DNA from: a virus
Direction: 5' to 3' (one strand)
Virus record (IMG/VR): IMGVR_UViG_3300043823_000671
Location: 28,737 to 92,736 of that record
DNA: 64,000 nucleotides
The notes beneath the pieces are model-generated. The model was not told where the DNA came from, did not search any database, and saw only the letters and a program-made list of their open reading frames with translations. The position numbers were made by a program, and so were the translations under genes. Below, piece by piece: positions 10,388-63,480 of this stretch (positions are counted from its first letter, which is position 1; the number at the start of each line of letters is the position of its first letter).

Positions 10388-10679
10388 CCGGAAGCCGTAC
10401 GAGCCAGAAGCATTTAGGAACCAGAACCCGTACCAGCCAGAAGGAAGTCGCAGAACCGAAGCATCCGGGATTTTCCAAAACTCAGAAGCGGTAAGCCGCC
10501 GGGTTAACAACCCTCAGAAGACCAGGTCAAGCCCCGCTAAGCCAAACCCTTGCAAATAAAGGGCAGTGCTAAAAGCGAAAGCCCGCCGGTTAACAGGACC
10601 AGAATCACGGGCGTCCAAGAAGCCCGAGCCTTGTGACAAAACCCACAAGCAGTCGCTACCACATGACACTAAACCCGTG

Positions 10680-20336: not shown

Positions 20337-21281
20337 ATGAACCCGCTCATCAGAAAACTTGCCTCGGCTTCGTCCGAGCAACGTAAAGCGATTCTTTCCA
20401 AACTTTCCCCGGAAGAACTGGCGCAAGTTCTCAAAGAACTGGAGACCATCGAGTCTTCCCCGATGAGGCGTTGGTATTGCACCCGGGAATATTGCGATGG
20501 AAACCCGCACGCTGGATATCACTGGTGCGAGCATCCAATCGATGGGAAGCACACTCCTTTCTGCAAGCACTCACGCACGCCACAAAGACCGCCTGAAAGC
20601 GACCCCGATAACCCCTGGTTGGTTTGGTTCTTCTCTGGTGGACGTGGAACGGGCAAGACACGGGCTGGTGCAGAGTGGGTACTAGACCTAGTTTGGAATC
20701 AGGGATACAAGCGAATCGCTTTGGTCGGTCGAACGCCAGCCGACGTTCGAGACGTAATGATTTACGGGGACTCGGGGATTATGTCCGTTTCGGACCCACA
20801 CCCACGACCAGTGCACGAGCCTACGAAGCGCCGACTCGTTTGGGAAAATGGCGCACAGGCTTTCACTTACTCAGCGGCGGCTCCGAGTCAGTTGCGTGGA
20901 CCGCAACATGACGCATCATGGTGCGACGAGTTAGCAGCATGGACAGATGCACCGAAGGGTGACTCCCTGGATACGAGTTGGAACAACCTAATGCTTGGGT
21001 TGCGTCTTGGAACTGACCCGAAGTGTCTTGTAACCACAACACCAAAACGTGTGAAGTTGGTACGCCAAATCATGGAGCGCAAAACGACGGTCATCACGAA
21101 CGGAACAACGTACGAAAACCTAGACAACCTTGCACCATCATTCAAAGAACAGGTCCTCACATCATATGAAGGGACACGAATCGGGCGCCAGGAACTTGAC
21201 GGCGTCGTTCTAACGGACGTAGAGGGCGCACTTTGGAGTCTGGAGATGATTGATTCTCTCCGTGGAGAGTTGGTCGAATGA
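20337..21281 (+). CDS. terL: terminase large subunit, ATPase part (split gene)
   Basis: 314 residues. Walker A is FSGGRGTGKTRAGAEWVL (about residue 100), the Walker B-like acidic pair is ASWCDELAAW, and the coupling motif is CLVTTTPKRVK, so the ATPase motor is complete. The frame ends before any nuclease domain. The N terminus has an unusual Cys/His cluster (CTREYCDG, HWCEHPIDGKH, FCKH) that may bind zinc. The next gene supplies the nuclease. Together they would translocate and cut DNA at the portal. Confidence 0.9.
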   Translation: MNPLIRKLASASSEQRKAILSKLSPEELAQVLKELETIESSPMRRWYCTREYCDGNPHAGYHWCEHPIDGKHTPFCKHSRTPQRPPESDPDNPWLVWFFSGGRGTGKTRAGAEWVLDLVWNQGYKRIALVGRTPADVRDVMIYGDSGIMSVSDPHPRPVHEPTKRRLVWENGAQAFTYSAAAPSQLRGPQHDASWCDELAAWTDAPKGDSLDTSWNNLMLGLRLGTDPKCLVTTTPKRVKLVRQIMERKTTVITNGTTYENLDNLAPSFKEQVLTSYEGTRIGRQELDGVVLTDVEGALWSLEMIDSLRGELVE

Positions 21282-21916
21282 TTACAGTTCGTGCCGAGGA
21301 TTTTCTTCGGGTTGTTGTTGGGGTTGACCCCGCCGTTACAGCAGGGGAAGACGCAGACGAAACGGGAATCGTTGTAGTCGCAAGCGGTCCGCATCAGCCA
21401 GACACCTGCGCCATTGAGCACTGCACAATGCACGCTTACGTTTTGGAAGACGCCACTTTGCCCCGTGGGACAAAAGCAAGCCCAGAGAAATGGGGAACAA
21501 GGGTCGTTGAGGCGTACGACGAATGGAATGCCGGAATCGTAGTTGTCGAAGGAAACCAGGGCAGGGAGTTGCTACGGAGCGTTCTGCATAACATCAGACC
21601 GACAATGCCGGTTGATATTCCAAATGCAAAATACAACAAGACAACTCGTGCAGAGCCAATCGTTTCACTTTATGAGCAAGGTCGAGTCCATCACCTTGGG
21701 GACCCCGCAAAGTTTGCGCTCTTGGAAGACCAAATGACAACATGGGTACCGACCGGGGTGCGAGGGCGTGGAGGCAAATCCCCTGACCGAATGGACGCAC
21801 TCGTTTGGGCTATAAGTGAACTCGATATCAATACCGGAGTGCGACGCCGTCGCTGGGAAGTAGAAGAAGGCATTACGCCAATCGGTTTCAGCCAGTCAAA
21901 TGGCTGGTCTTTCTAG
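21278..21916 (+). CDS. terminase large subunit, nuclease part (split gene)
   Basis: 212 residues starting in an ATGA overlap with the ATPase gene, with GGAGAG upstream. RNase H-like nuclease motifs: VVVGVDPAVTAGEDADETG (first Asp), GIVVVEGNQGRELL (Glu), and SPDRMDALVWAISEL (last Asp). Length and motif order match the C-terminal half of ordinary TerL proteins. The separate ribosome site argues for a true two-gene arrangement, although a frameshift in the sequence should be excluded. Confidence 0.88.
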   Translation: MITVRAEDFLRVVVGVDPAVTAGEDADETGIVVVASGPHQPDTCAIEHCTMHAYVLEDATLPRGTKASPEKWGTRVVEAYDEWNAGIVVVEGNQGRELLRSVLHNIRPTMPVDIPNAKYNKTTRAEPIVSLYEQGRVHHLGDPAKFALLEDQMTTWVPTGVRGRGGKSPDRMDALVWAISELDINTGVRRRRWEVEEGITPIGFSQSNGWSF

Positions 21917-22568: not shown

Positions 22569-23546
22569 TCAGGCGTCCTGTAACTGACGCTCGCTTGCCA
22601 TTGAGTCGTTCGACTCATCGATTGAAGTGAATATGAAGTTGTTTACGTCGACGCCCGACTCTTCGTTTACAGCAAGGGCGCAGTTGCTAATTGCGTTACC
22701 GATGTAGACCAAGAGTTGCTTGTAGAGAGCAAGAAGAAAGTTTTCGGCTTCGCTCTTAGCGTCTTCAAAGTTCAGGAACCAGCAGTTCTCGTTGTAGAGG
22801 CGAAGCAAAAAGTTCTCGTCACCAGCACCAGCAAGGTGGTTGATAAGTCGGTTCAAGCGGTTTGCGCTGTTGTTCGAAGAATCGCCAAAGTAGTTTCTGG
22901 TGGAGTGGCGAACCGTGTACCGGGTCTGCACCGAGTCGCCACCCATAACAAATTCCTGCCCCACGAAAGCGTAGGTATCGGATTCAGAGCCATTCTGGGG
23001 AACGTACTTGACGAACTTACCGGAGTTGGCAATGACGGGGACGAGGGCGCCACTAGCGACAATGTTGATGCGGTCAACCAGTTCATTCCAAAGTTCAATC
23101 AACGAATCAAGACCAAGACCGATAATCGATTCGTTGCTGTGGTCGAAAGATGTAAGACCATCATCACCAAAGAACGAGCGGATGGAGCGTGTCTGCTCTG
23201 CGACGGCATTCGAAAGCGAATTTTCTTCGCTCTCTTTCATCTGATTCAAGAACGTGCTAATCGAGCGACGGATTTTCGTGTTGTCGATTGACGAGCGGTA
23301 TGCGTTTGCACGCTGGCGGAAAGCGGATGGGTCCTGAACCCACATCCGAACCGTGGAGTCTCCTTCTCGCTGGCGAACGTCAATGTCGAAAATATCTCCG
23401 ACCAAGTATCCGACAGAGACGGTGGATGCTACGTTCACCGGAACCGTACCGCTCTCGGCAGAGGCGATTGCTCTCTCGGCATTCTGGTTTACAAGGTTGA
23501 AAAACCCGACCTTGTCAAACTGGATTCTCTTCACATTCTCTGGCAT
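22569..23546 (-). CDS. hypothetical protein of the amidoligase region (325 aa)
   Basis: Not recognised. AAGAAGGGGG upstream of ATG. Alternating helices and strands, with a Ser/Asn-rich middle (NYFGDSSNNSANRLNRLINH) and an acidic C terminus. It has its own operator-bearing promoter at 23576, in the same promoter family as the amidoligase genes, so it may be a partner or substrate of that system. Confidence 0.65.
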   Translation of the reverse strand: MPENVKRIQFDKVGFFNLVNQNAERAIASAESGTVPVNVASTVSVGYLVGDIFDIDVRQREGDSTVRMWVQDPSAFRQRANAYRSSIDNTKIRRSISTFLNQMKESEENSLSNAVAEQTRSIRSFFGDDGLTSFDHSNESIIGLGLDSLIELWNELVDRINIVASGALVPVIANSGKFVKYVPQNGSESDTYAFVGQEFVMGGDSVQTRYTVRHSTRNYFGDSSNNSANRLNRLINHLAGAGDENFLLRLYNENCWFLNFEDAKSEAENFLLALYKQLLVYIGNAISNCALAVNEESGVDVNNFIFTSIDESNDSMASERQLQDA

Positions 23547-23575: not shown

Positions 23576-23604
23576 ATTGTATCTAAACCATGGTTTAGTT
23601 GCAA
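23576..23604 (-). promoter_or_regulatory. minus-strand promoter with perfect 16-bp operator
   Basis: TTGCAA, 17-base spacer, TACAAT. The spacer holds CTAAACCATGGTTTAG (23583-23598), a perfect palindrome whose half-site CTAAACC recurs in the other minus-strand promoters. Confidence 0.72.
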
Positions 23605-23608
23605 GTAC

Positions 23609-23965
23609 CTACAGCCCTTTGTCTGCAAGGTATTTGTCGTCTCCGCCGTACCATGCTTTGGCAAAATCAACCGCTTCTTGAAAGGAGTCTGCTGGCGATG
23701 AACCGCTAACGGTCAACGTAATGACACCAAACTCGGCAAGACGGGCTAGGAAAAACTCATCCGGCAAGTTCTCGTCGATGACGATTCCATACTGGATGAA
23801 TAGCCTGTACGAGATACCTACCTTGGGATGCTTGTGGTCATCGGGTAGATACGAGCGCTCTCCGATGTTGTGGAGAATGTCGAAAGCGGATGGGGCAACG
23901 ATTGTCTCATCGCCCCAAACGACTGTCCACTTTGCGTTGCTTGGGTATGCATTATTAGTACTCAT
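23609..23965 (-). CDS. hypothetical protein (118 aa)
   Basis: Start at ATG 23965 after GAAGGGA; a slightly longer start at 23977 is less likely. ISYRLFIQYGIVIDENLPDE and FFLARLAEFGVITLTVSGSS give an alpha/beta pattern. No family recognised. It has its own promoter at 23990. Confidence 0.65.
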   Translation of the reverse strand: MSTNNAYPSNAKWTVVWGDETIVAPSAFDILHNIGERSYLPDDHKHPKVGISYRLFIQYGIVIDENLPDEFFLARLAEFGVITLTVSGSSPADSFQEAVDFAKAWYGGDDKYLADKGL

Positions 23966-23989
23966 GAGTCCCTTCAATCCTTTCCATCA

Positions 23990-24018
23990 AGTGTACATAA
24001 ACCGGTGTATAGTCGCAA
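23990..24018 (-). promoter_or_regulatory. minus-strand promoter, same family
   Basis: TTGCGA, 17-base spacer containing CTATACACCGGTTTATG, TACACT. The spacer is a weaker form of the CTAAACC..GGTTTAG operator. Confidence 0.6.
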
Positions 24019-24022
24019 ACGA

Positions 24023-24757
24023 CTAGGCGATATTTTTGACGCTGTCTTTGATAACCGATAGGTCGACAATCTCGCCGTTACGGATTCGCATATACGTGTA
24101 AGGCATAACTTCCTCCGACCAAGCCAACTCAACGCCAGCGCTCTTGCAGGCATTGAGCAACAACTGCTCGGTAGAAGCAAAGAACAACGACCCACGCTCG
24201 GTACGACCGATAGCGAGCGGAGACCCATCGAGTCGGGCAAGGTGCAAGTCACGCTTGTCACGTGCGTTGAACCAAGCGAGAGAAGCACGACCTTCGATAG
24301 AGCGCAAGACACGAATGGGCTCGTGCTTGGTCGCATCAAGAAGGGCGAAAGCGGATTCGCTGTCAACTTGGGCGATGCGACGGCTACCAATGTGCTTGAA
24401 GATTTTGTCATCATTGGTAATGACGCCATTGTGAACACCGACGATTCGACCCGAAACGATTGGGTGGTTATTCAGATTGTTTTCAGGCGAACCCTTTGTA
24501 GCCCAGCGTGTGTGCAAAATCGCACGCTTTGCGCTTGCTGGCATTTTTGTGATGTAGTGCTCGAACTGGTCTGCGGGGACCGGAGCCTTGCTCACCGCAA
24601 TTGTCGGGCGGTCGCCCGAGCCCTTCGACGGGACAACCCACGATGCGCCGGTTGCGTCTTCGCCACGAACGACAATCTGGTCAAGCAAGCACTTAGACAA
24701 CTTGCGTGCATTGAACTTCTCATTTGGACTTAGGCAGAATCCTGCGATACCACACAT
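24023..24757 (-). CDS. class II glutamine amidotransferase
   Basis: 244 residues. It begins MCGIAGF, so the catalytic nucleophile is Cys2 after Met removal. RGEDATGASW, HTRWATKGSPENNLNNHPI and GVHNGVITND are the hallmark motifs of Ntn-type glutamine amidotransferases, which release ammonia from glutamine. No synthetase or isomerase domain is attached. The adjacent amidoligase-like gene is the likely ammonia or glutamine acceptor partner. Confidence 0.9.
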   Translation of the reverse strand: MCGIAGFCLSPNEKFNARKLSKCLLDQIVVRGEDATGASWVVPSKGSGDRPTIAVSKAPVPADQFEHYITKMPASAKRAILHTRWATKGSPENNLNNHPIVSGRIVGVHNGVITNDDKIFKHIGSRRIAQVDSESAFALLDATKHEPIRVLRSIEGRASLAWFNARDKRDLHLARLDGSPLAIGRTERGSLFFASTEQLLLNACKSAGVELAWSEEVMPYTYMRIRNGEIVDLSVIKDSVKNIA

Positions 24758-24768
24758 ATTTTTACCTC

Positions 24769-25869
24769 CTATGAACGTGTGCTGGCAAGGTTGACAGCAC
24801 GGGTCTTGAGAAACTGACCAACATTGTTGGGAAGATTGATTTCATCAACCATCGCTTCGAGCGAACCGAAGTTCGTCTTTGCGTCTTCGATTGCTACCGC
24901 CTTCTCGATGAGGGCGAGCACAAACTGAATCCAGGAAGTCAACTTCTCGCCGTTGAGTGTTCCCTGGTGCTGGCGGAACTCGATTGTTCCGTACTTCGAG
25001 TAGGCGTGAGCGTTGATAGCACGGTAGCGGTTGATGTTGCGTAGCGCAATCCTTGAACTGTTGAGGTCCGCTTCCGACACCGCACCATTGAAGGCATTGG
25101 CGATTGCGTTGTACTCGGCAATGACGCCAGAACCGTAGCGACTGTTGATTCGGTCGTTGGGGTCGAACGATGGGCAGAAGCGGTTCTCGTGACGGCTATT
25201 CGCAAGAATCTGGTTGATGTTCTTCTGGTTAGCGATGTAGAGGTCGATGACCTTCATAATCTCAGCACCAACCAAGTTGTCCATGCCGACGTGCAAGTGG
25301 AGCCCGCACGTGCGGTCTACACGAGCACCAGCATTGAGCAGTGCGCCAACGGACTTGGAAGCCATTTCCAATCCTTCGATACCACGAAGAATCGGGGAGA
25401 CCAACTCAAGACCGTGACCGAGACCGGTGCCACGACTCGTAACCGAAGCGTCGGTAACAATCTTCCAGGAAGCGGTTACGTTGTGGTTGTAGCGCTCGTA
25501 GTTGACATCAATGCCAACAGCACGAAGGGCTTCGACGGCGACCTCGGGACGGATGTTGAAGAACTCCGCTTCGAAACCGAAAGTGCGATTCGAGGGAATC
25601 TGAATATCCGGCGAGTTCTGCTCGGACACGATTGCAACTGCACGCTCAGCGTTACGGGAAGCCTGGCGACGCTGAGCCGTACGGACCGCTTCGTAAGCGC
25701 TCTGGGCACGGGGCACTCCATTTGGCGTGAACCCTAGAGCCCGAGCGATGTCGATGTACGACTCGCCAGCCAGACGGAGGCGCAAAGCCTCGTCCTGCCG
25801 AGCGTGAGTAGCCTCACGGCTCCGGTTGATACTTGAGCGATTGTAACGCTCTGGTCGGTTTGCAGGCAC
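24769..25869 (-). CDS. amidoligase-family (COOH-NH2 ligase) enzyme
   Basis: 366 residues. After a basic N-terminal region with a possible helix-turn-helix (IDIARALGFTPNGV) comes the glutamine-synthetase-like core: FGFEAEF, GHGLELVSPILRGIEGLEMA, RTCGLHLHVGMDN and YGTIEFRQHQGTLNGEK. These Glu/His/Arg motifs match the putative amidoligase family (Amidoligase_2), which forms amide bonds between carboxylates and amines. It is followed directly by the glutamine amidotransferase gene. Substrate unknown. Confidence 0.85.
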   Translation of the reverse strand: MPANRPERYNRSSINRSREATHARQDEALRLRLAGESYIDIARALGFTPNGVPRAQSAYEAVRTAQRRQASRNAERAVAIVSEQNSPDIQIPSNRTFGFEAEFFNIRPEVAVEALRAVGIDVNYERYNHNVTASWKIVTDASVTSRGTGLGHGLELVSPILRGIEGLEMASKSVGALLNAGARVDRTCGLHLHVGMDNLVGAEIMKVIDLYIANQKNINQILANSRHENRFCPSFDPNDRINSRYGSGVIAEYNAIANAFNGAVSEADLNSSRIALRNINRYRAINAHAYSKYGTIEFRQHQGTLNGEKLTSWIQFVLALIEKAVAIEDAKTNFGSLEAMVDEINLPNNVGQFLKTRAVNLASTRS

Positions 25870-25903
25870 CTGAACTCCCTTCGTTGGTTTTTCCTACATA
25901 AAC

Positions 25904-25932
25904 AGTGTAGCGGGGTTTAGCGCCCGGCGCAA
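25904..25932 (-). promoter_or_regulatory. minus-strand promoter for the amidoligase operon
   Basis: TTGCGC, 17-base spacer ending CTAAACCCCGC, TACACT. Same operator spacing as at 19802 and 31864. Confidence 0.7.
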
Positions 25933-25973
25933 GTACTCTACAGCCCTTGGGAAATAAGGGGTTTCAGAAAACC

Positions 25974-26003
25974 TTGACACGACATCCAAAAAGGATGTAC
26001 TGT
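25974..26003 (+). promoter_or_regulatory. plus-strand promoter with spacer palindrome
   Basis: TTGACA, 18-base spacer, TACTGT. The inverted repeat ACATCC-AAAAA-GGATGT overlaps the spacer and -10, and GGTTTAG follows the -10. Divergent from the amidoligase promoter, so the pair may be co-regulated. Confidence 0.65.
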
Positions 26004-26029
26004 GGTTTAGTCAAAAAAAGGGAGTTCAA

Positions 26030-26299
26030 ATGACACAACTTAGATACAAGCCAAAGCGCCGTCGTTCGGTTCGCCGGGGAAGACCGGAAACGGAAGACAT
26101 TTACAGCATCGGATTCATCCTCGGGTTTGCGACATGGTTTTTTGCGCCGGTCTACTCGAAGGCTCTGGGCGATGCTCAGGCGAGCGGAAATGACCACACG
26201 AGGTTGCTCTCTCTGCTTTGGATTTTTGTGTTTGCTGGCGGGTGGTCAGTAATCGTTGCTATCGCCTACACGATAAGAGAGGGTCGCAGGGGTCGCTAA
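26030..26299 (+). CDS. two-pass membrane protein (89 aa)
   Basis: AAAGGGAG upstream of ATG. A very basic N terminus (RYKPKRRRSVRRGRPE) is followed by two hydrophobic segments (about 25-45 and 61-81) and a basic tail. Cytoplasmic ends are predicted by the charges. No family recognised. Confidence 0.7.
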   Translation: MTQLRYKPKRRRSVRRGRPETEDIYSIGFILGFATWFFAPVYSKALGDAQASGNDHTRLLSLLWIFVFAGGWSVIVAIAYTIREGRRGR

Positions 26300-26325
26300 A
26301 CACGGCATCAGCAATCCCAGTTTGG

Positions 26326-26331
26326 TAGTCT
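26326..26331 (+). promoter_or_regulatory. -10 box of a leaderless start (TAGTCT)
   Basis: TAGTCT, seven bases, ATG 26339. The box lies in a small hairpin, GGTAG-TCTCT-CTACC. Confidence 0.5.
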
Positions 26332-26338
26332 CTCTACC

Positions 26339-26779
26339 ATGACTCACATCGAAATCAAGAAGTCAACTGGCGCAATCAATGTGTGCAAGAGGAATGCCGT
26401 AAACGGCATCGTGACACGCTCTGTATGTATTGGATATGTCGAAACTTCAACCCCCGAAGACGAGATTCACGCTTCCGCAGAAGAAGTCGCAGGGGATTTT
26501 GGATGGGTTATTGACGACCAATATGGATGGTCAAAAAGCGAAGACTACGAGTGGGTTGACTGCTTCGCAAAGCCTGTATCTGTGTCTTTTGTTGGGAACT
26601 CCGTACCGGCGGACGCCGTATTTTTAGCACGTAGCGCCGGAGTCGAGACAGACGAAATCTTTTACGCCGACTCCTACGATGAGGAATCTGGGAAGACTCG
26701 GGTTTGGTTCTCTGTCGGGGAGCCGAAGGGGTGGGTCTGGGAAACCAATCTTCCTTGGGGAGACTGGTTTGACGAATGA
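26339..26779 (+). CDS. hypothetical acidic protein (146 aa)
   Basis: Apparently leaderless. Mostly beta strands, with paired aromatics (WVIDDQYGWSKSEDYEWVDC) and a C-terminal GWVWETNLPWGDWFDE. No family recognised. ATGA-coupled to the next gene. Confidence 0.65.
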   Translation: MTHIEIKKSTGAINVCKRNAVNGIVTRSVCIGYVETSTPEDEIHASAEEVAGDFGWVIDDQYGWSKSEDYEWVDCFAKPVSVSFVGNSVPADAVFLARSAGVETDEIFYADSYDEESGKTRVWFSVGEPKGWVWETNLPWGDWFDE

Positions 26780-27126
26780 GAAAACTACCTTTCCATAGGC
26801 GCATCGTCATAATGGCGACTGGCTACGTAGAGCCGAGAGATTTGGAAAACTACGGTCGTATTGAAGGTCATGCGTTTGAAGACGATGACCTAGTTAGGGT
26901 CGCAACGCAAGAGGCTCTAGGCGCTTCTTTAGAGATTATCGGTCTCCACGGCGCTATATGGGATGACCTTATTTCCCACCTATCTACGATGGGGCTCTTT
27001 GTTGAGGTCGAATTCGAAACCGCACGAAGAATGGAAGATGCAACAAAACGCCTAGAGGCATCACTTATTATTGCAAAGGACGCAATCAACCTAGAGGTCG
27101 ATTGGGAAAGCAACGAACATGAGTAA
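26776..27126 (+). CDS. hypothetical protein (116 aa)
   Basis: ATGA-coupled on the 5' side and overlapping the next gene by eight bases. Alpha/beta composition (LVRVATQEALGASLEIIGLH) with a helical C terminus. No family recognised. Confidence 0.65.
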   Translation: MRKLPFHRRIVIMATGYVEPRDLENYGRIEGHAFEDDDLVRVATQEALGASLEIIGLHGAIWDDLISHLSTMGLFVEVEFETARRMEDATKRLEASLIIAKDAINLEVDWESNEHE

Positions 27127-27370
27127 TGAAAAAGAAAAAGAAGAACTGTCTCTACAGGAGCAGTTTGACAGTCTTACAAAACTTAGCGAGATTGAGCGAC
27201 GTATGCTCAGCCGGGCTATTTATGTTCTTTGCGAGTTGACCGGTAAGCGTCCGCCGGAAGTTGTCCAACTTCTTTCACTCGACTTAGACGATGAGTATTC
27301 AAAGGCTGTAGACACGGCGACCGAAGATAAGAAGCCCAAACTCTACGTTCCGAGTAGAAAATTAATCTAA
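27119..27370 (+). CDS. hypothetical helical protein (83 aa)
   Basis: A charged N-terminal helix (NEKEKEELSLQEQFDSLTKL), then LSRAIYVLCELTGKRPPEVV. The second half resembles the 32546 product (LMLKEAVDWLCDLTDLPKFE), so the two may be distant relatives. Convergent with the minus gene at 27367. Confidence 0.65.
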   Translation: MSNEKEKEELSLQEQFDSLTKLSEIERRMLSRAIYVLCELTGKRPPEVVQLLSLDLDDEYSKAVDTATEDKKPKLYVPSRKLI

Positions 27371-27774
27371 CGAATTATTTGAAAATGATGGGTGACCTTT
27401 TTGGGGTCGACCAAACGCCTCTTTGATTTCTTCGCCATTGGTGACGGCTTGGAGTAGTGGGAGTTTTCAAACAATGAACTCTGCACCGGCTTTTTCTTTT
27501 TTGAACTGCCAATAGGGATTATGTCAGCAGGTTCCGAGTTACGTGCTCTCAACTTTGGCGATATGAAGATGTCATCGTCAGCGTACTCATCGAGAATCAA
27601 ATCGTCGCACTCTTCGAAAAAGTAAAAGGGAAGGTCTTCCCTTTGGCAACCAAGGAACGTCATCCACTCCTTGTCGTTCATTCCTAGTACAAAATTGCGT
27701 TCAAGACCCCAGCGCTTGCTCAAGTAATCTATGTCGTGCGAGTCAAGAAGACTAGAAAAAGTTCTCACCACCAC
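27367..27774 (-). CDS. hypothetical protein (about 135 aa)
   Basis: Start probably one of the GTG codons at 27774-27768, which follow AAAGGG and overlap the previous stop; ATG 27798 is possible. Acidic middle (FFEECDDLILDEYADDDIFI) and basic C terminus (SPMAKKSKRRLVDPKKVTHH). Coupled to the cyclotransferase-like gene. Function unknown. Confidence 0.6.
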   Translation of the reverse strand: MVVRTFSSLLDSHDIDYLSKRWGLERNFVLGMNDKEWMTFLGCQREDLPFYFFEECDDLILDEYADDDIFISPKLRARNSEPADIIPIGSSKKKKPVQSSLFENSHYSKPSPMAKKSKRRLVDPKKVTHHFQIIR

Positions 27775-28187
27775 ACCGCCCTTTCTGCGGAAAGCCAATC
27801 GTTATCGGGAACTGCCTGCCCGTGGGTTTTGTCCCAAGTGCAAATCAAAGCCATTTTCTGAGTCCCATCAGCCAAGGTCACCTCACCCTCGCTAAGACGG
27901 TAGCCAGCACTAACCTCCATAGAGAGCATTTGAGCCAAGTCGGAATTGACAACTACTTCAAAAACCTCACCGACCGCCTCATCGTCAAACTTCCCCGTCC
28001 ATACGCAGTATGGGTAGCGCTTGTGGTCGGTTGGGTAGAAAAGGCGGGCAAATCGCAAAGAAGCCTTCCCCAAGTCATCTACGACGAGGTCTTTGAGCCA
28101 ATGCTCGTAAAGAGCCCCATCTTTCCTCAGGGTCCCGTAAGCGAAAAACAAAAGGGTGTCGCTTGGTGCGGTAACGTCGTTATTCAT
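27765..28187 (-). CDS. gamma-glutamylcyclotransferase-like protein (AIG2/BtrG fold)
   Basis: 140 residues from ATG 28187, a leaderless start. LLFFAYGTLRKDGALYEHWL holds the YGTL substrate loop, VGEVFEVV the core strand, and LSMEVSAGYRLSEGEVTL the catalytic Glu in its usual context. Such enzymes cleave gamma-glutamyl amides to release 5-oxoproline. A link to the amidoligase and amidotransferase genes 2 kb away is inferred, as these three activities are known to be combined in predicted peptide-tagging pathways. Confidence 0.82.
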   Translation of the reverse strand: MNNDVTAPSDTLLFFAYGTLRKDGALYEHWLKDLVVDDLGKASLRFARLFYPTDHKRYPYCVWTGKFDDEAVGEVFEVVVNSDLAQMLSMEVSAGYRLSEGEVTLADGTQKMALICTWDKTHGQAVPDNDWLSAERAVWW

Positions 28188-28194
28188 ATAGTCC

Positions 28195-28223
28195 ACTATA
28201 GCGTTTTTAGCAACTGGATGCAA
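28195..28223 (-). promoter_or_regulatory. minus-strand leaderless promoter
   Basis: TTGCAT, 17-base spacer, TATAGT, then seven bases to ATG 28187. Confidence 0.65.
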
Positions 28224-28256
28224 GCACCCATAGAACAAAAGCATTGACAGATGAAG

Positions 28257-59828: not shown

Positions 59829-61565
59829 ATGTACGTTTTGGGCATAAACCCCGGCGAGCATGAAGGCTCTGCGTGTGTAGTAAAAAACGGTGAAATTATT
59901 TCGTTTGCCGAAACGGACCGCATTTCACGTGAGCGCTTTGGGACGATAGTTTCGTACGATATCCATCCGGATGAAAATCAATACAGGGTTGTCCCAACGC
60001 ACCTTGCGGTCGGTAACGCTCTCCGGCAGGCGGGATTGACACTCGATGATATAGACGCAATTGCAATCGGCTGGTCCATAGTGCAACTTGGCTGGACGTC
60101 AACGCACCTTGGTTCCCCAAAGAGGCTTCACTACGGGATGACAGTACATTTAGACGATGAGCGTTTTGACCAGAGTTTGTATTGCGAAGCGCTTTTCCCT
60201 ACTTCGCTTTTCCCAAGAAAAAAAATGCCACCAGTCCACTTTGTGCCCCATCACCTAAGCCACGCCTCAAGCGGTTTCTTCATTAGTGGTTATGAAGAAT
60301 CTGCAATTCTCGTCGCAGATGGCTGGGGGGAAAGTGAAGCGACTTCCTTGTTTTGGGGTAGCGGTAGAGAAATAAACTTAATACGAAGTTTCAAGCACTC
60401 ATTGGGTCATTTGTACAATCGTGCCGCTAGTGAAAGTGGATTTGACGCCCAAAGCCCGGGCAAACTTATGGGTCTTGCCCCATACGGTCAGGTTTACGAG
60501 GTGCAGAAATTTTACGGACTTACTGATTCTGGATACGAATTTTATCTTCCGCCCAATTGGACAAACGAAGACCTTTTCTATAACTGGAAAAAACCCAACG
60601 TCTTCTCCGTACCTATCAAGTACCCGCTGACAGCAGAAGAAAAAACACTGCTAACACTGGGCTTCTCCGATTTCGCCGCAACGGTTCAGCACCACTTTGA
60701 GAAGATAATGCTCCATCTCGTTGGAGTTTTAAAAGAAGAGACCGGGATAGACAATTTGGTTATTGCCGGTGGGTGTGGACAGAACTGTACTTTCAATGGT
60801 CTTGTCGCCTCGGCAGGCAAAGAAGTTTTCGTGCCACCCGTTCCCCATGACACCGGAGTGTCGCTGGGTTCGGCTCTTTACGTCGAGCGCTTGACCCACG
60901 CACGAAACAATGAGGCGCTTCAGCACGCCTATTACGGATATAAGCCATCTAGGGAAGAAATTAAGTACGCAGTAAAGCGCTCCGGATTGAATTTCAGAAA
61001 ACTCAATGAAAGCGAACTGCTGGAGGAAACAGTTCAGCACTTGATGCATGGGCGAATTGTGGGTTGGTACCAGGGGCGGGCGGAGATTGGTGCACGTGCC
61101 CTAGGCGCCAGAAGCCTCTTGATGGACCCACGCAAAAAAGAGAATTGGAAACGCCTAAATGAAGTAAAGGGTAGGGAAGCATGGCGCCCCCTCGCCCCCA
61201 GCATCTTGAAGGAGCGAGCCGGTGAGTTTTTTGATATTACGGAATCGCACTTGGCAAAATTCATGGTTGGCGCATTCAAAGTAAAAAAAGAAATGCGGGA
61301 TGAGGTCCCAGCAATTGTGCACGTTGACGGTTCCGCCAGACCTCAGTTCGTTGAATACACAACGAATCCTAGGTACTACAAATTGATAGAAGAATTTGCG
61401 TTGAAAACAGGCACCCCGATGTTGGTGAATACATCTTTCAACCTTTCTGGCGAGCCAATCGTGCACTTGCCCGAAGATGCAATTAGGTCATTTATGAAAA
61501 GCGAAATAGATGTTCTTGTTTTGGGCGATTACATTATTTCCAAGGCGGAGAAGCCAGGTGCGTAA
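59829..61565 (+). CDS. carbamoyltransferase (NodU/CmcH/TobZ family)
   Basis: 578 residues. LGINPGEHEGSACVVKNGEI, PHHLSHASSGFF (metal HxxxH), VADGWGESEATSLF and the C-terminal GWYQGRAEIGARALGARSLL and EAWRPLAPSIL are the family motifs. Such enzymes carbamoylate sugar or other hydroxyls from carbamoyl phosphate and ATP. Next to glycosyltransferases, so a carbamoylated glycan on a virion protein or host surface is likely (inference). Confidence 0.92.
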   Translation: MYVLGINPGEHEGSACVVKNGEIISFAETDRISRERFGTIVSYDIHPDENQYRVVPTHLAVGNALRQAGLTLDDIDAIAIGWSIVQLGWTSTHLGSPKRLHYGMTVHLDDERFDQSLYCEALFPTSLFPRKKMPPVHFVPHHLSHASSGFFISGYEESAILVADGWGESEATSLFWGSGREINLIRSFKHSLGHLYNRAASESGFDAQSPGKLMGLAPYGQVYEVQKFYGLTDSGYEFYLPPNWTNEDLFYNWKKPNVFSVPIKYPLTAEEKTLLTLGFSDFAATVQHHFEKIMLHLVGVLKEETGIDNLVIAGGCGQNCTFNGLVASAGKEVFVPPVPHDTGVSLGSALYVERLTHARNNEALQHAYYGYKPSREEIKYAVKRSGLNFRKLNESELLEETVQHLMHGRIVGWYQGRAEIGARALGARSLLMDPRKKENWKRLNEVKGREAWRPLAPSILKERAGEFFDITESHLAKFMVGAFKVKKEMRDEVPAIVHVDGSARPQFVEYTTNPRYYKLIEEFALKTGTPMLVNTSFNLSGEPIVHLPEDAIRSFMKSEIDVLVLGDYIISKAEKPGA

Positions 61566-62229: not shown

Positions 62230-63480
62230 ATGATTTCAGTTTTTACTCCTAGCCACAATACGCAATGGCTTAGCGAATGCTACAAAAGCCTCGCCTCACA
62301 AACCCACACAGACTGGGAGTGGATTGTTCTCCTAAACGGTGGCGTTGGCGAGGAAGACGTTGAGTGGTACGATAAGTCGGACAGCAGGGTTCGGGTTTTT
62401 TTCAGTGACACTGAGCCTGTAATTGGGGCGCTAAAGAATGAAGCAGTCTCTCTTTGTGAGGGCGACATTCTTTTAGAATTTGACCATGACGACATTCTCA
62501 TGCCAACTGCTTTAGAAGAAGTTCAGTCAGCATTTGACTCTGACCCCGAAATAGGGTTCGTGTATTCCGACTTCGCAGAAATTGACGAGCAAGGTAACCC
62601 AAGTAAGCGTGAGTTCAATACCGCCTATGGCTGGACTTATCACGATGACGAAAACGGCTATCACGTGTGCGAGGGGAAGTCGCCTCACCCGCACCACGTT
62701 GCATATATTTGGTATGCGCCGAATCACCTCCGTGCCTTTCGTGCTTCTGCGTATGACGAAATTGGCGGGTACAACAAAACCCTAAGAATCTGCGATGACG
62801 CAGACTTGATGGTTCGGTTTTACAAGAAAACCAAGTTCTATCACATCCAAAAAAACCTATATTTACAAAGACTCCATGGACAGCAAAGCCAGGCACAACA
62901 AGAATTGAACGATGAAATTCAACGCCTGACGGTATCTATTTACGATAAAAACATCATGGACATGATGGTCAAGTGGTCCAATGACAATGGGTTTTTAGCA
63001 CTTGACCTTGGCGGTGCCCACAACCCAGCGAAAGGGTTTAAAACAGTCGACCTTCATGAGCCCGCTGACATCGTTGGTGACATCTTCAACGTTTTGGGCG
63101 ACATGGAAGACGACTCTGTCGGGGTTATCCGTGCGTGTGATTTCCTTGAGCATATCCCGGACAAGATTCGCTTATGGAACGAGATGTACAGGGTTCTAGC
63201 ACCTGGCGGGATGATTCTTAGCCTTACTCCAAGCACCGACGGGCGTGGCGCTTTTCAAGACCCGACCCACTGCGCTTTTTACAATGAAAATTCTTTCTGG
63301 TATTGGATTGACGAAAACTACAGAAAGTATGTCCCGGAAATCAAGACCGACTTCCAGAAGAGCCGTTTCATGACTTTCTTCCCGTCACCTTGGCACGAGG
63401 AAAACCAAATACCGTATGTCTGTGCAAACCTTATTGCCATCAAAAATGGCGAAAGGTACGGCGGTCTGCTAGGCATTTAG
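62230..63480 (+). CDS. GT2 glycosyltransferase fused to a SAM methyltransferase
   Basis: 416 residues. The N-terminal half is a GT2 enzyme: ISVFTPSHNTQWLSECYKSL, DILLEFDHDDILMPTALEEV (DxD) and VYSDFAEIDEQGN. The C-terminal half is a methyltransferase-like domain: FLALDLGGAHNPAKGFKTVD, ACDFLEHIPDKIRLWNEMYR and VLAPGGMILSLTPS. It could add and methylate one sugar. Third gene of a sugar-modification run. Confidence 0.85.
   Translation: MISVFTPSHNTQWLSECYKSLASQTHTDWEWIVLLNGGVGEEDVEWYDKSDSRVRVFFSDTEPVIGALKNEAVSLCEGDILLEFDHDDILMPTALEEVQSAFDSDPEIGFVYSDFAEIDEQGNPSKREFNTAYGWTYHDDENGYHVCEGKSPHPHHVAYIWYAPNHLRAFRASAYDEIGGYNKTLRICDDADLMVRFYKKTKFYHIQKNLYLQRLHGQQSQAQQELNDEIQRLTVSIYDKNIMDMMVKWSNDNGFLALDLGGAHNPAKGFKTVDLHEPADIVGDIFNVLGDMEDDSVGVIRACDFLEHIPDKIRLWNEMYRVLAPGGMILSLTPSTDGRGAFQDPTHCAFYNENSFWYWIDENYRKYVPEIKTDFQKSRFMTFFPSPWHEENQIPYVCANLIAIKNGERYGGLLGI

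Follow-up and report, generated by a model that had tools for sequence, protein, structure and literature searches.

A predicted phage amidoligase cassette with a reduced gene set and a candidate dedicated partner gene

Cassettes built around an amidoligase have been described in phages since 2009, and the literature found repeats a cell-wall role for them without experiment. The 'peptidoglycan modification module' of the PaP3/LUZ24/phiEco32 type is traced to Iyer et al. 2009 and Hardies et al. 2013 (via PMC5498523 and PMC11945000). In 2017 the PaP3-type gene set was called a peptidoglycan modification cassette and hypothesised to prevent superinfection, in a passage citing Iyer and Hardies (PMC5498523), and the cell-wall reading is repeated in passages of later papers (PMC11945000, PMC10580990). 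The original prediction for the locus described here had correctly drawn a link to the amidoligase, glutamine amidotransferase (GATase) and AIG2-like systems of Iyer and colleagues, and the passages in these three papers had already made this link for phages. In cluster AL Arthrobacter phages an AIG2-like protein and an amidoligase are described side by side, together with a third gene that is named a GTPase domain protein in the relevant part of the text (PMC5513430), whereas by record and search this third gene is a GATase. In the literature searched we found neither a biochemical test nor a demonstrated activity of such a cassette from any phage.

The DNA analysed here, referred to as the window, is a stretch of 64,000 nucleotides taken from a 92.7-kb IMG/VR virus record, of which it covers bases 28737-92736. 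A megablast search of the window against phage isolates gave no match. The host is probably actinobacterial, because two WhiB-like regulators are present and the terminase relatives are mostly Microbacterium, Arthrobacter and Gordonia phages. For co-occurrence, 38 records were fetched by terminase alone and searched as whole records, which avoids selecting on the amidoligase. The wider survey comprised 107 amidoligase loci, including Bacteroidales prophage-like and marine loci. The large terminase of the window is itself split into an ATPase ORF (20337-21281(+)) and a nuclease-like ORF (21278-21916(+)); in five relatives (L095, L101, L104, L107, L109) the two halves are 0.2 to >1 kb apart, which suggests that the gap is an insertion hot spot, e.g. 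for an intron or homing gene. A NodU/CmcH-like carbamoyltransferase (59829-61565(+)) and a family 2 glycosyltransferase (62230-63480(+)), encoded close to where the virion genes end, perhaps decorate the particle or a surface sugar.

Three predicted enzymes make up the core of the cassette. The gene at 24769-25869(-) encodes a protein of 366 aa matching Amidoligase_2 (PF12224; Pfam E=4e-37, 128.8 bits against a curated cut-off of 22), a predicted glutamine-synthetase-like carboxylate-amine ligase with its catalytic residues at about 94-320. In an alignment of 20 homologues E100, E102, E155, H191, H193, E297 and R299 are invariant, and the ligase-site motifs GxExE, ExVSP, HxH and ExRxHxG are kept. 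By sequence no solved relative of the amidoligase was found, the only alignment being to the helix-turn-helix of LexA (E=0.67).

The second gene, at 24023-24757(-), is co-directional with the amidoligase gene and separated from it by 11 nt. Its product of 244 aa is a predicted stand-alone class II (Ntn) glutamine amidotransferase with Cys2 as nucleophile (Pfam GATase_6, E=1e-15, 58.3 bits against a curated cut-off of 27). The MCGI start, which places the cysteine directly after the methionine, is kept together with HTRxAT, NxHP (N96, H98), HNG and D132, and the best solved relative is GlmS, the glucosamine-6-phosphate synthase.

The third enzyme is a predicted GGACT/AIG2-like gamma-glutamyl(amine) cyclotransferase at 27765-28187(-). 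The open reading frame as such extends over 27765-28244(-) and matches GGACT/AIG2 (PF06094) with E=7e-10 and 39.9 bits against a cut-off of 22.8 in Pfam; the start is better placed at 28187 because homologues begin there. The YGTL motif at 36-39 and the conserved acid E110 (numbering of the 159-aa ORF) are kept. PHROGs assignments agree with Pfam for all three genes. The family calls of the original prediction, as well as the start at 28187, are thereby upheld, and the catalytic residues, the loss of which would have spoken against it, are kept in the alignments of all three enzymes. No membrane segment or signal was found in the cassette enzymes, and the step they carry out would therefore be cytoplasmic.

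The original prediction had placed the three genes in one pathway, and in related phages they do occur together. An amidoligase is present in 14 of the 38 records picked by terminase. A GATase was found in 14/14 of these and a cyclotransferase in 11/14, against 0/24 for either gene among the amidoligase-free terminase relatives; Fisher values on these counts overstate the significance because these phages share kinship. The three amidoligase-bearing relatives in which no cyclotransferase was found are represented by contigs 8.7, 13.3 and 46.7 kb long. The survey of homologue neighbourhoods shows the pair to be adjacent more widely, with a GATase following the amidoligase in 70 of the 107 loci, usually with a gap of <100 nt. 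This is also the usual arrangement in the Bacteroidales (including prophage-like) and marine loci; in many of these loci carrying the pair, a cyclotransferase was not found. Amidoligase and GATase distances are correlated (Mantel r=0.88, 0/2000 permutations), as would be expected for long co-inheritance of the two sequences. All three families are furthermore found together in independent lineages, namely Arthrobacter phages, Pseudomonas PaP3 and a Microthrixaceae contig. The order in the Arthrobacter phages and in the Microthrixaceae contig is cyclotransferase, amidoligase, GATase. In the latter (L170:591-5716) a second ligase-like gene lies between cyclotransferase and amidoligase and an ATP-grasp-like gene follows the GATase, and this cassette appears to form an actinobacterial link with the PaP3 type.

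The amidoligase and GATase genes are preceded by a predicted promoter, TTGCGC-N17-TACACT (25904-25932(-)), whose spacer holds a CTAAACC element. The claim that the two genes share a promoter therefore stands as far as the sequence goes, and this promoter may be regulated. The 92.7-kb record contains 6 copies of the pattern CTAAAC-N4..7-TACA(A/C)T where 0.03 would be expected; five of them lie in the window at 10669(+), 19818(-), 25920(-), 31880(-) and 52111(+), the copy at 25920(-) being that of the amidoligase, and the sixth lies 2.8 kb upstream of the window. These sites make up a genome-wide class of predicted promoters with a TACACT -10 box, and the CTAAACC in their spacers is likely an operator or activator site. 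One related locus (L108) has an element similar to that of the amidoligase promoter. No such promoter was found ahead of the cyclotransferase gene, which is therefore probably not co-regulated in this way.

Promoters of the same type had also been claimed for two further genes, at 23609 and 22569. Both have predicted promoters, TTGCGA-N17-TACACT (23990-24018(-)) and TTGCAA-N17-TACAAT (23576-23604(-)), respectively, and at sequence level these (TTGC-N19-TACA(A/C)T) are related to, and diverged from, the amidoligase promoter, in support of the claimed common promoter type. The spacer of the 22569 promoter contains a perfect palindrome, CTAAACCATGGTTTAG, which is possibly an operator; a palindrome search allowing 3 mismatches gave a result overall no better than chance.

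The gene at 23609-23977(-) encodes a small protein of 122 aa, the start of which is perhaps at 23962. Homologues with 53-67% identity lie directly beside the amidoligase/GATase pair in 19 of 19 viral loci, one of them on a contig that begins inside the GATase gene, whereas a set of 50,697 phage records contains none. An AlphaFold2 model (pLDDT 85) had no match in the PDB. This conservation strongly supports 23609 as a dedicated partner of the amidoligase and GATase, and makes it the best candidate partner. The gene at 22569-23546(-) encodes 325 aa and is a putative optional, fast-evolving partner. A homologous gene of about 300 aa follows the 23609 homologue in about half of the loci, among them L108, L115, L002, L003, L005 and L141. 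Its model (pLDDT 74, from 7 sequences) had no match among the PDB and viral models, and profile comparison showed no kinship of 22569 or 23609 with PaP3 orf47, orf49 or orf50. Of the suggestion that both proteins are partners of the enzymes, the part on 23609 is thus strongly supported by its neighbourhood and that on 22569 in part. Downstream of the 23609 homologue, the operon of six relatives (L002, L003, L004, L005, L006, L010) includes a further small gene, which was not seen in the window; its product begins with an 'LLSEAI...' segment and resembles a helix-turn-helix towards the C-terminus.

For the function of these genes we put forward a reduced phage amidoligase cassette, a reading to which we give about an even chance of being correct. 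The GATase, using Cys2, would hydrolyse glutamine and pass the ammonia to the neighbouring amidoligase, which would activate a carboxylate with ATP and thereby amidate a peptide-like substrate. The cyclotransferase would take off gamma-glutamyl groups as 5-oxoproline, either trimming the product or reversing the modification. In this scheme the 23609 protein would be a dedicated partner, serving as an adaptor, a regulator or a substrate, and the 22569 protein would be an optional one. The analysis establishes the families, the active-site residues, the operon, and the co-occurrence and co-divergence of the genes; we infer the reactions, their order and a pathway common to the enzymes, with the chemistry taken from the respective families. 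The most likely targets are cell-wall peptides in the first place, for superinfection or lysis control, followed by a host or phage protein; against a cell-wall target stands that nothing in the analysis specifically indicates the cell wall. What counts against one pathway is that the cyclotransferase gene lies at a distance and lacks the promoter of the other two enzymes, and that in many Bacteroidales and marine loci bearing the pair no cyclotransferase was found.

A supply of ammonia by the GATase cannot be universal, since Firmicutes phages have an amidoligase and a cyclotransferase without a GATase. The same phages favour a different reading, gamma-glutamyl conjugation in place of amidation, in which the amidoligase would couple glutamate, or some other amino acid, to an amine carried by a peptide, a metabolite or a protein. 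The GATase would then be an amidase acting on the conjugate or a supplier of glutamate, and the cyclotransferase would remove the tag. The cyclotransferase family does act on gamma-glutamyl amines, and the scheme resembles the protecting-group logic of BtrJ/BtrG in butirosin biosynthesis. However, the GATase is the tighter partner in the lineage of the window and in Bacteroidales, where the cyclotransferase gene either lies far off or was not found, and we consider conjugation rather unlikely.

The position of the cyclotransferase gene, 2-10 kb from the amidoligase/GATase pair, also fits an enzyme that acts independently, in the turnover of glutathione or gamma-glutamyl amino acids, and would leave a system of amidoligase, GATase and 23609 only. 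The gene has a separate location, lacks the shared promoter and forms a unit of its own with a gene without assigned function at 27367-27798(-), which overlaps its end. A homologue of the latter follows the cyclotransferase in L002, L003, L108 and L131, with the overlap present in the window and in L108. Such independence is nevertheless unlikely in view of the co-occurrence with the amidoligase (11/14 against 0/24), and in Arthrobacter and Geobacillus phages the cyclotransferase gene directly adjoins that of the amidoligase.

The two remaining alternatives start from the amidoligase itself, whose N-terminal approximately 90 residues are an additional domain. In all of the seven homologues tried, including those of Arthrobacter phages, this stretch gave sub-threshold matches to helix-turn-helix families, and residues 20-55 or so likely form a helix-turn-helix. 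Taken together, the amidoligase/GATase pair, 23609 and this likely DNA-binding domain of the ligase could point to protein- or DNA-associated amidation or tagging, with 23609 (or 22569) as substrate or specificity factor, and not to a cell-wall modifier, a reading that we find quite doubtful. Improbable is a modification tied to DNA, in which the helix-turn-helix, as seen in those seven homologues, would bring the amidoligase to DNA for amidating or conjugating a modified base or a DNA-binding protein, e.g. the host polymerase: the genome does have ParB-like, DNA methylase and SNF2 genes, but the N-terminus is missing from Firmicutes and many marine homologues in the alignment, and DNA hypermodification is rated low because its partner enzymes (hydroxymethylase, TET/JBP and 7-deazaguanine genes) were lacking in a Pfam search of 39 proteins from a record that may be incomplete.

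Returning to the reduced cassette, the comparison with described systems is closest for the PaP3/LUZ24/phiEco32 type, which, like the window, has an Amidoligase_2 gene beside a class II GATase, while its genome also encodes a GGCT/AIG2 cyclotransferase. The second COOH-NH2 ligase (PF14395) of the PaP3 type had no match in the record of the window or in eight relatives, and no relative of the ATP-grasp enzymes (PaP3 orf43 and the L170 enzyme) was found in the record. For lack of these the cassette is not of the full PaP3 type and would work like it in part; in addition, the version in the window has the likely helix-turn-helix at the N-terminus of the amidoligase and the genes 23609 and 22569. 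The Arthrobacter phages of cluster AL (Laroye, Salgado, Edmundo) and Ottawa/Kharcho share with the window the order of the three genes and the N-terminal extension of the amidoligase, whereas their sequences are 32-41% identical, the three genes are contiguous and there is no 23609 homologue. OM43 phages and, as cited there, mycobacteriophage Marvin (PMC10580990) likewise combine the amidoligase and GATase families; the part of that account describing them names these two families only, with no mention of a cyclotransferase or of 23609. Firmicutes phages (Bacillus 055SW001, Geobacillus GR1 and prophages of C. clostridioforme) resemble the window in having amidoligase and cyclotransferase (PMC11318856), but two records searched contain no GATase. 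The lineage of the window has one of the smallest sets found, consisting of a single ligase, a single GATase, a single cyclotransferase and a dedicated partner, which makes it easier to test what these genes amidate and for what reason they are retained by phages. The kind of phage cassette of which this set is a variant is known but uncharacterised, and what is new here is the dedicated third gene, 23609, together with the reduced gene set.
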